From Sulfuricella sp. (GTDB lineage Bacteria > Pseudomonadota > Gammaproteobacteria > Burkholderiales > Sulfuricellaceae), in assembly GCA_019911785.1 (NCBI GenBank), contig JAIOJM010000163.1, positions 1 through 17,133 of the forward strand: a DNA stretch of 17,133 nucleotides, in the 5' to 3' direction. The notes below the pieces were generated by a model. That model worked only from the letters and a program-made list of their open reading frames with translations. It was not told where the DNA came from and searched no databases. A program made the translations under genes and the position numbers. This document shows, piece by piece, positions 4,011 to 8,626 of the stretch (position 1 is the first letter of the stretch; each line of letters begins with the position of its first letter).

Positions 4011-4180
4011 TATCCACAGATGACCAAAAGTAGGCGCCTCTAGGCGACACAGATTTACACAGATATTTCAATGCGTTGACTTCATTGCTTGACTCACCCT
4101 GACGGTGATGTGCGATTGACTTTCAACCACCCGATTCGGCGGGGTTTTATCTGTGTGAATCTGCGTCATCTGCGGATTAT
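4011..4180. repeat. Composite inverted-repeat element 1 (CACAGAT units) with embedded 27-bp module
   Basis: The left arm (4011-4065) reads TATCCACAGATGAC, then an inserted stretch, then CACAGATTTACACAGATA. The right arm (4147-4180), reverse complemented, reads TAATCCGCAGATGACGCAGA followed by TTCACACAGATAAA. Each arm thus contains three CACAGAT/GCAGAT-type units, and the arms pair once the insert in the left arm is skipped. The insert (4024-4050) is shared with element 2. About 80 nt lie between the arms without a recognisable gene. The element sits between the convergent response-regulator gene and tRNA-Pro. Confidence 0.75.
4024..4050. repeat. 27-bp shared module, copy 1
   Basis: This stretch runs CCAAAAGTAGGCGCC...CTAGGCGACAC and matches 8499-8525 at 26 of 27 positions (A against G at the fifth base). 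It contains the 8-bp palindrome AGGCGCCT and two TAGGCG copies 10 nt apart. It lies between the first and second repeat units of the left arm of element 1. Confidence 0.9.
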
Positions 4181-4221
4181 AGGATGACCCGTATGGCCAA
4201 AGTGTCACACGCCTGCCGAAA

Positions 4222-4251
4222 AAGCAAAAAGGCCAATCCGAAGATTGGCCT
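4222..4251 (-). terminator. Intrinsic terminator after tRNA-Pro
   Basis: On the minus strand AGGCCAATC pairs with GATTGGCCT around a TTCG tetraloop (4230-4251), followed by TTTTTGCTTTTT. The stem, stable loop and T-run are those of a rho-independent terminator 16 nt past the tRNA-Pro CCA end. Confidence 0.9.
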
Positions 4252-4267
4252 AACTGTTTAAATCAAT

Positions 4268-4344
4268 TGGTCGGGGCGAGAGGATTTGAACCTCCGACCA
4301 CTTGCACCCCATGCAAGTACGCTACCAGGCTGCGCTACGCCCCG
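4268..4344 (-). tRNA. tRNA-Pro (anticodon GGG)
   Basis: The minus strand folds as a cloverleaf: acceptor CGGGGCG (4338-4344) pairs with CGCCCCG, the D-arm contains AGCGCAGCCTGGTAGCG, the anticodon stem CTTGC/GCAAG encloses loop ATGGGGT (anticodon GGG), and the T-arm holds GGTTCAAATCC. Discriminator A73 and an encoded CCA end follow. The GGG anticodon reads CCC and CCU proline codons. A -10 hexamer lies just upstream and a TTCG-loop terminator just downstream, so it is a single-gene unit read separately from the merR gene before it. Confidence 0.97.
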
Positions 4345-7431: not shown

Positions 7432-7432
7432 T

Positions 7433-8452
7433 TCAGTTGAACTGCCTTAAAAATCTCAGATCGCTCTCGAAGAACAACCTCAGATCGTTCACGCCGTAAC
7501 GCAGCATCGCCAGGCGCTCCACACCCAGACCGAAGGCGAAACCGAGGTATTTCTCGCTGTCCACGTTGACGTGGCCAAGCACGTTGGGGTGCACCATGCC
7601 GCAGCCCAGCACTTCGAGCCAGCCGGTATGGCTGCACACGCGGCAACCCGTGCCGCCGCACATCACGCAGCCGATATCCATTTCCGCCGAAGGTTCGGTA
7701 AAGGGAAAGAACGAGGGGCGAAAGCGCACCTTGAGGTCGTCGCGCTCGAAGAAGCGCTGCATGAAATCGGCCAGCACGCCCTTGAGTTCGGCGAAGTTCA
7801 CCTGCTCGTCCACCCATAGCCCCTCAACCTGATGGAACATGGGGGTGTGCGTGACGTCGGAATCGCAGCGGTAGACCCGGCCCGGCGCGATGGCCTTCAG
7901 CGGCGGCTGATGATTCTGCATATAGTGCACCTGCACCGGCGAGGTATGGGTGCGCAGCACATGCCGGTCGTCCACATAGAAGGTGTCGTGCATGGCACGT
8001 GCGGGATGATTCTCGGGAATGTTCAGCGCGGTGAAGTTGTAGAAATCGCTCTCGATTTCCGGCCCCTCTGCGACGCTGAAACCGATGGAACGGAACAAGG
8101 CCTCGATGCGCTGCAGAGTGCGCGTAACCGGATGCAGGCCGCCCACCCCCAAGCCGCGGCCGGGCAGCGTCACATCGAGCGCTTCCTGCGCCAGTTGCGC
8201 CTGCAGCAGCCGCTCCTGTATCGCTTCACGCCGATCTTTCAGGGCCTGCTCCAGCAAGTCCTTCGCCTGGTTGATGCGGGCACCCGCTTCACGGCGCTCT
8301 TCCGGCGGCATTTTGCCGAGCTGCTTGAGCTGCTCGGTGAGCACGCCGCTCTTGCCCAGATAGCGCGCCTTGGCCTGCTCCAGCTCGGCCGGATTATCTA
8401 TTCCGGCGAAGGCAGACTGCGCTTCTTTCAGGATTGCGTCTAGATTTAGCAT
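7433..8452 (-). CDS. pheS: Phenylalanyl-tRNA synthetase alpha subunit
   Basis: The 339-residue protein has the N-terminal coiled coil that contacts tRNA-Phe (about 1-90) and a class II catalytic core: ENHPARAMHDTFYV, motif 2 YRCDSDVTHTPMFHQVEG and motif 3 GFAFGLGVERLAMLRYGV. It carries the aminoacylation site of the alpha2-beta2 enzyme; PheT is its partner. The ATG at 8452 has only a weak ribosome site (CCGGAA). Upstream lie a repeat element and then the rplT terminator, so pheST is probably expressed from its own start or by read-through. No Phe-rich leader peptide like pheM is visible. Confidence 0.98.
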   Translation of the reverse strand: MLNLDAILKEAQSAFAGIDNPAELEQAKARYLGKSGVLTEQLKQLGKMPPEERREAGARINQAKDLLEQALKDRREAIQERLLQAQLAQEALDVTLPGRGLGVGGLHPVTRTLQRIEALFRSIGFSVAEGPEIESDFYNFTALNIPENHPARAMHDTFYVDDRHVLRTHTSPVQVHYMQNHQPPLKAIAPGRVYRCDSDVTHTPMFHQVEGLWVDEQVNFAELKGVLADFMQRFFERDDLKVRFRPSFFPFTEPSAEMDIGCVMCGGTGCRVCSHTGWLEVLGCGMVHPNVLGHVNVDSEKYLGFAFGLGVERLAMLRYGVNDLRLFFESDLRFLRQFN

Positions 8453-8487
8453 TTCCGGAATCTTAAAATAAGCCTAAAAAAGGCGAC

Positions 8488-8626
8488 AACCACGAATGCC
8501 AAGAGTAGGCGCCTCTAGGCGACACGAATGCTCACGAATAAACACGAATAGTTCAAACAAACATCATGCCGCCAAACAGGTAAATCAGCAGTGAATATTC
8601 GTGTTTCATTCGTGTCATTCGTGGTT
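8488..8626. repeat. Composite inverted-repeat element 2 (CACGAAT units) with embedded 27-bp module
   Basis: The left arm (8488-8550) has AACCACGAATGCC, the inserted module, then ACACGAATG, CTCACGAATA and AACACGAATA. The right arm (8596-8626), reverse complemented, reads AACCACGAATGACACGAATG followed by AAACACGAATA. The arms are made of CACGAAT units and pair if the insert is skipped, leaving a 45-nt centre. It fills most of the gap between the rplT terminator and pheS, so it forms the upstream region or leader of pheST. Its layout parallels element 1 although the unit sequence differs. Confidence 0.78.
8499..8525. repeat. 27-bp shared module, copy 2
   Basis: The stretch matches 4024-4050 at 26 of 27 positions. 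It also sits between the first and second repeat units of the left arm. The octamer AGGCGACA at its end (8517-8524) occurs again just outside the arm at 8481-8488, which may reflect the way the module arrived. Confidence 0.9.

Follow-up and report, generated by a model that had tools for sequence, protein, structure and literature searches.

A 23-nt gene-less module with precise empty sites in relatives, hosted by MITE-like palindromes in Sulfuricella and probably mobile

Small dispersed repeats (SDRs) of cyanobacteria, which Elhai et al. are said to have described in 2008, are reportedly 21–27 nt in length, dispersed, nested, and embedded in heptamer repeats and mini-transposons. Copying by an RNA route has reportedly been proposed for them. 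To our knowledge, mobile bacterial elements this small have been described only in a subgroup of the cyanobacteria. The SDR named SDR5 enters HIP1 between the third and fourth base, according to excerpted text of PMC4390886. Among the REPs with a GTAG tag, those of S. maltophilia are 23 nt long, like the module reported here, and the RAYTs studied cleave at CT or CA, both in an excerpt of PMC8266576; the GTAG families described have stems of 5–13 bp in the corresponding part of PMC3733652. GC clusters of yeast mitochondrial DNA, such as GC42, are short palindromic mobile units which merge and pass between species, as stated in a section of PMC4478555. Parts of PMC6006769, PMC2884548, PMC6513891 and PMC3116915 were also used for the comparison with known kinds.

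The window analysed here is the whole stretch of 17,133 nucleotides of the Sulfuricella sp. contig JAIOJM010000163.1. It contains two copies of a sequence which an earlier note had described as a shared 27-bp module inserted in two inverted-repeat elements. Positions 4024–4050 and 8499–8525 were the same at 26 of 27 positions, with a lone A/G mismatch at module position 5. By calculation, a stretch of 17 kb should hold only about 10^-6 pairs of this kind, so the 27-mer match is not due to chance. The identity was borne out but the length was not: comparison with empty sites gave a module proper of 23 nt, CCAARAGTAGGCGCCTCTAGGCG, located at 4024–4046 (copy 1, CCAAAAGTAGGCGCCTCTAGGCG) and 8499–8521 (copy 2, CCAAGAGTAGGCGCCTCTAGGCG), both on the + strand. 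The trailing ACAC is common to the two copies because both host repeats continue with ACAC. Variation across all copies was found chiefly at module positions 4 (A/G) and 18 (T/C), the latter lying in the loop of the hairpin. Per-position conservation was 93–100% in 183 non-redundant copies and 81–100% in 53 less-biased copies, as retrieved by searches which tolerated up to three substitutions. A palindrome, AGGCGCCT, had also been pointed out; it lies inside both module copies and occurs twice in the window, but it is unremarkable by itself (0.55 occurrences expected; two or more in 17 of 200 shuffles). In both elements the other arm is uninterrupted, as claimed, and the module stands between the first and second unit of its own arm. 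This position is not a general rule: among 113 copies with units on both sides, one heptad-like unit lay within 32 nt upstream in 92 and two in 21. At one locus (L331, G020:C410) the module copy was 10 nt shorter, the loss lying between its two TAGGCG direct repeats.

No transposase was found in the window, in agreement with the earlier note, when 7 window proteins were compared with Pfam and the remaining ORFs were judged by eye. Two adjacent Met-rich ORFs with common repeats and no Pfam match are located on the − strand at 15899–16396 and 16465–16944, close to a P-type ATPase which has a heavy-metal binding domain. A literature search gave no match to the strings GGCGCCTCTAGGCG or CCAAAAGTAGGCG, and there was no description of the module among the matches listed.

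The bounds first given for the two host elements, 4011–4180 and 8488–8626, were too small. Element 1 is a MITE-like palindrome of CACAGAT-type units which hosts module copy 1; it spans 3996–4183 (188 bp), has the ends CCTTGAAAAA..TATAGG, and is flanked by an exact 5-bp target duplication, ATGAC, at 3991–3995 and 4184–4188. Element 2, a MITE-like palindrome of CACGAAT units hosting copy 2, spans 8473–8642 (170 bp) with the ends CCTAAAAAA..TTTTTCCAGG. It lies between two genes which we take to be pheS and rplT from recognition of the window ORFs, and its target duplication, ATAAG at 8468–8472 and ATAAA at 8643–8647, carries one mismatch. The entire element 1 was missing from the orthologous site of genome G020 (locus L327). 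At other loci of G020 the element 1 family was represented by a copy with the module (L328) and by copies without it (L329 and L330). The element 2 palindrome was present in G019 (L267) and missing from 8 of 8 other same-genus loci examined; at L336, L337 and L338, other DNA was found where the palindrome would be. Heptad elements with recognisable ends had an exact 5-bp duplication in 16 of 24 rows (one element fills two of these rows), where 1.8 would be expected; 1000 re-pairings never gave more than 7. Inverted-repeat ends and target duplication are features in which these host palindromes are like MITEs. At the level of sequence, the two palindromes of the window are MITE-like insertions themselves, and the window thus contains two layers of insertion. 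Heptad palindromes of several sequence types had common ends like CCTAAAAA..TTTTTAGG, plus 5-bp target duplications.

Empty counterparts of the filled site were found for both window copies. In the pheS–rplT gap of G019 (L267), the element 2 palindrome is without the module and reads AACCACGAATG^ACACGAAT, an orthologous empty allele, where the window has 23 nt. In the element 1 family the empty/filled pairs were paralogous, L330/L328 for the left arm, which is filled in the window too, and L332/L339 for the right arm; the empty site of L330 reads CCACAGATGA^ACACAGAT. A further comparison came from G001, the nearest genome to the window (21% of sampled 31-mers in common), which is near-complete (2 contigs, 99%). 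At L002 the module was present in G001 and missing at that point in 10 of 10 other same-genus genomes showing the locus; 11 such genomes were compared, and the locus was not found in G023. The cleanest comparison was with G025, which was 92% identical and had 598 bp against 621 bp in G001 over the same stretch, while G016 and G018 had other DNA immediately left of the insertion point. Insertion in the G001 lineage would be the simpler reading of this difference. At L260 the module interrupts the frame of an IS91-type transposase, which results in a frameshift and a stop; among 73 matching plasmid records, three homologues without the interruption were found.

As far as aligned sequences can tell, the module entered exactly at purine^A, in either palindrome arm and with no duplication of the target, and relatives keep the empty site. 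The many copies, together with relatives whose empty alleles are precise, lend good support to the earlier suggestion of a mobile small module. Taken as a whole, the module is best explained as a mobile unit of 23 nt without genes, with a probability of roughly 0.8. Many module copies have host repeats in common and hence are not independent insertions.

The left neighbour of the module in the 53 less-biased copies was G in 27, A in 24, T in 2 and C in none, and the right neighbour was A in 51. The 183 non-redundant copies, most of which came from a search requiring ACAC, gave G 105, A 75, T 3 and C 0 on the left and A in 177 on the right. The less-biased copies were collected from searches with 17- to 20-mer cores, from Y1-gene neighbourhoods and from the window; loci L001–L006 were found with a pattern including ACAC and with 3 mismatches allowed. 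Copies whose flank was shorter than 12 bases were left out of this count, and each local sequence was counted once. Hosts of the module were MITE-like heptad palindromes, other small repeats, one transposase gene and intergenic DNA. By a crude test which left out copies with less than 150 bases of flank, 29 of 59 less-biased copies were inside a detectable inverted repeat, as the earlier note would have it, and 30 were outside. Occurrence outside inverted repeats is what the earlier note had named as refuting its reading, and this came true in part; the copies outside limit the claimed specificity and do not weaken mobility. The idea of a recognition site defining a repeat family was not supported, with the module present in several unrelated repeat types, a transposase gene and plain intergenic DNA.

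Heptad-like units were found on both sides of the module in 113 of the 186 copies whose flanks were long enough (copies with less than 45 bases upstream or 260 bases downstream were left out), and flanks were common to many Methylobacter copies. Both observations would fit a spread in which similar heptad palindromes recombine or undergo gene conversion with one another and no other route is involved. However, insertions outside heptad repeats, namely L002 in G001 with its empty relatives and the IS91-type gene at L260, contradict recombination as the sole route, and insertions were found in unrelated palindromes as well; we regard this explanation as very improbable. An inverted second module copy was present up to 260 nt downstream in 12 of 186 copies. 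The module was outside ORFs of at least 120 aa in 153 of 155 copies, as judged with a naive ORF caller on loci of 2500 bases or more, and the gaps holding it were convergent in 36 cases against 19 divergent.

The distribution of the module was patchy, comprising Sulfuricella-like betaproteobacteria, Methylobacter and Nitrospirota, and copies with an identical core occurred in all three. A scan of genome_contigs with a 21-mer ending in ACAC matched at least 120 stretches. By their titles, the matches listed included at least 87 from Methylobacter, at least 18 from Sulfuricella-like bacteria (Sulfurimicrobium included), at least 3 from Nitrospirota, at least 1 each from Aquabacterium and Methylomicrobium, and at least 10 from proteobacteria without a genus name. 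With a 17-mer core and up to one mismatch, all 11 genomes picked as known carriers contained 1–59 copies, against 0–1 for the reversed control. The module was present in 9 of 12 genomes of the genus of G001, G001 itself among them, at 0–20 copies each (control 0). In broader samples, reference genomes included, a match was found in 7 of 121 genomes of the order sample of G002 (Methylobacter tundripaludum SV96), three other known carriers being part of that sample, and in 6 of 148 genomes of the phylum sample of the Nitrospiria genome G010. The control pattern also gave isolated hits, so a lone hit with one mismatch may be due to chance. Some handles stand for one genome (G004 = G024, G012 = G035 and G014 = G019, with identical contig coordinates), so counts from separate surveys are not additive. 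In the phylum sample of G001 a match was found in 3 of 398 genomes, G001 included. That most sampled genomes are without the module, and that close relatives have empty alleles, argues against a non-mobile functional protein-binding site retained by selection inside repeats. Such a site would account for the strong sequence conservation across phyla, though the searches select similar copies, and we consider it extremely improbable. A phage vehicle was considered and rejected: viral_contigs contained 0 exact hits to either of two probes, a 20-mer from the 23-nt family and an 18-mer from a 22-nt sister family.

Because the module looks like a GTAG REP, RAYTs were tested as its movers. Movement as a GTAG-type REP by a Y1 transposase (RAYT/TnpA_REP) would fit the GTAG ahead of the stem region, the intergenic setting and the lack of target duplication, and each of the 13 module genomes tested gave PF01797 matches. 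The 22-nt sister family, CCAAMAGTAGGCGCTTTAGGCG, was located within 450 bp of a Y1 match in 6 of 70 Y1 loci (L132, L134, L144, L153, L167 and L188), the 70 loci being part of 90 Y1 matches. Given how often it occurs elsewhere (11 times in 889,562 bases), about one locus is expected by calculation. At L167 it stands on both sides of a RAYT, suggesting a link, and in view of the enrichment a Y1 enzyme may play a part after all. However, the sister copies at L167 and L188 sit within the RAYT's own different REP (GGAGTGCA..), and the paralogous REP at L181 is empty at the A^A site which is filled at L167, so sister copies can be passengers. The 23-nt family itself was found in 1 of the 70 Y1 loci, and there it lay at a distance of 1.3 kb from the gene. 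G001 contained 5 module copies, one of them lineage-specific, yet gave 0 PF01797 matches at E 0.001, and G021, G015 and G022 had 6, 7 and 2 Y1 matches, respectively, and 0 modules. Over 12 genomes, module copies and Y1 genes were not correlated (Spearman 0.05, p 0.87). The module stem is 4 bp, against 5–13 bp in the described GTAG families, and its inferred junctions, R^C and G^A, are unlike the CT or CA dinucleotides at which the studied RAYTs cleave. The flanks, the correlation and the junctions lower the case for a RAYT as the mover, which we hold to be decidedly unlikely. A RAYT family with an adjacent GGAGTGCA-type REP was seen in Methylobacter genomes at L167, L181, L183, L188, L160 and L151.

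The mechanism which we tentatively favour, at somewhat less than even odds, is one in which a trans-acting enzyme encoded elsewhere would recognise the single-stranded module in its folded form and would insert it in DNA at R^A. The fold recognised would consist of a GTAG foot and a CGCC-TCTA-GGCG hairpin. Single-strand transfer is favoured over staggered double-strand cutting because target duplication is lacking. The hairpin of 4 bp is weak, which would count against a structure-based mechanism such as the one proposed here: its z was −1.28 as DNA, with 26 of 200 shuffles folding equally well, and −0.77 as RNA. Folding is poorer still in the sister family (DNA z −0.64, RNA z 0.02). Nor was a replication-strand bias found by crude local GC skew (63 vs 56 of 119), such as a lagging-strand mechanism might give, and this too counts against the favoured mechanism. 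Spread might take two routes, insertion of the module on its own and hitch-hiking as a host MITE or REP moves, the latter because the host palindromes are MITE-like. Copying through RNA, either by reverse transcription or by RNA insertion, would also be consistent with the very small size, the precise ends and the lack of target duplication. Against it, the module showed no bias with respect to transcription in gaps between co-directional genes (38 copies with, 40 against), and an Rfam search of window positions 3900–8900 at E up to 1 gave nothing at either element, returning a tRNA and an adjacent sub-threshold match only. We consider the RNA route unlikely.

The precise placement was not confined to the 23-nt family. 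The base on the left of the sister family was A in 17 of 17 copies and that on the right was A in 16 of 17. In Methylobacter, a third small element, CGACTGCATGGATGCAGGAGGTAGAGCAATGCAGGAGCAATTGCCGA, which is about 47 nt long, is inserted inside the loop of the module at L098 (about position 2277), L110 (about 3847) and L011 (about 5203), and elsewhere the same element hosts the 22-nt sister family. A larger element with the same ends was looked for and rejected: half-module searches of 267 sequences (1.29 Mb), with 50–60 letters viewed on each side of hits, gave no join to a longer gene-bearing element. Apart from full copies, these searches brought up members of the 22-nt family, copies that were truncated or had diverged, and small nested inserts.

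The SDR5 site in HIP1, GCGATCGC, amounts to G^A and thus fits the R^A rule of the module. A Y1-independent transposition system with one conserved enzyme, which would move 22–23-nt hairpin modules into purine^A sites across Pseudomonadota and Nitrospirota by the rule of SDR5, is possible rather than probable. If true, it would make SDR-type elements a general bacterial phenomenon. The module, with its many sites in sulfur and methane oxidisers, would rank among the smallest mobile DNA elements known. Its presence in betaproteobacteria and methanotrophs whose close relatives have empty alleles would offer a tractable setting for finding the enzyme. The lineage-specific insertion of G001, a genome without a Y1 match, is a constraint against the leading candidate.

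The module is like MITEs in being gene-less and mobile, and differs from them in having neither terminal inverted repeats nor target duplication. GC clusters are likewise short palindromic mobile units but differ in residing in an organelle, in the length of 42 nt and in a putative target duplication, as far as the excerpt of PMC4478555 goes. GTAG REPs and REPINs share with the module a GTAG tag before a palindromic part, an intergenic location and many copies. The stem of the module falls short of the REP range, its conserved GTAG is preceded by six conserved letters, and one G stands between GTAG and the stem. GTAG REPs flank RAYT genes, which the 23-nt family does not, and the junction dinucleotides also differ. 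The closest known kind would be the cyanobacterial SDR as reportedly described, to which we liken the module. In length (21–27 nt) and dispersal SDRs resemble both the 23-nt and the 22-nt family, each present on many contigs, and the embedding in heptamer repeats and mini-transposons is matched by the heptad-flanked copies and by hosts with 5-bp duplications. Precise insertion and recent mobility have their counterpart in the orthologous empty alleles, and nested insertions in the 47-nt element within the module loop and the sister family within that element. The module differs from SDRs in its hosts, which are repeats other than the HIP1 of SDR5, and in its range as far as found here, since SDRs are reportedly confined to a cyanobacterial subgroup and the module was found in Betaproteobacteria, Gammaproteobacteria and Nitrospirota, Methylobacter and Sulfuricella-like bacteria among them.
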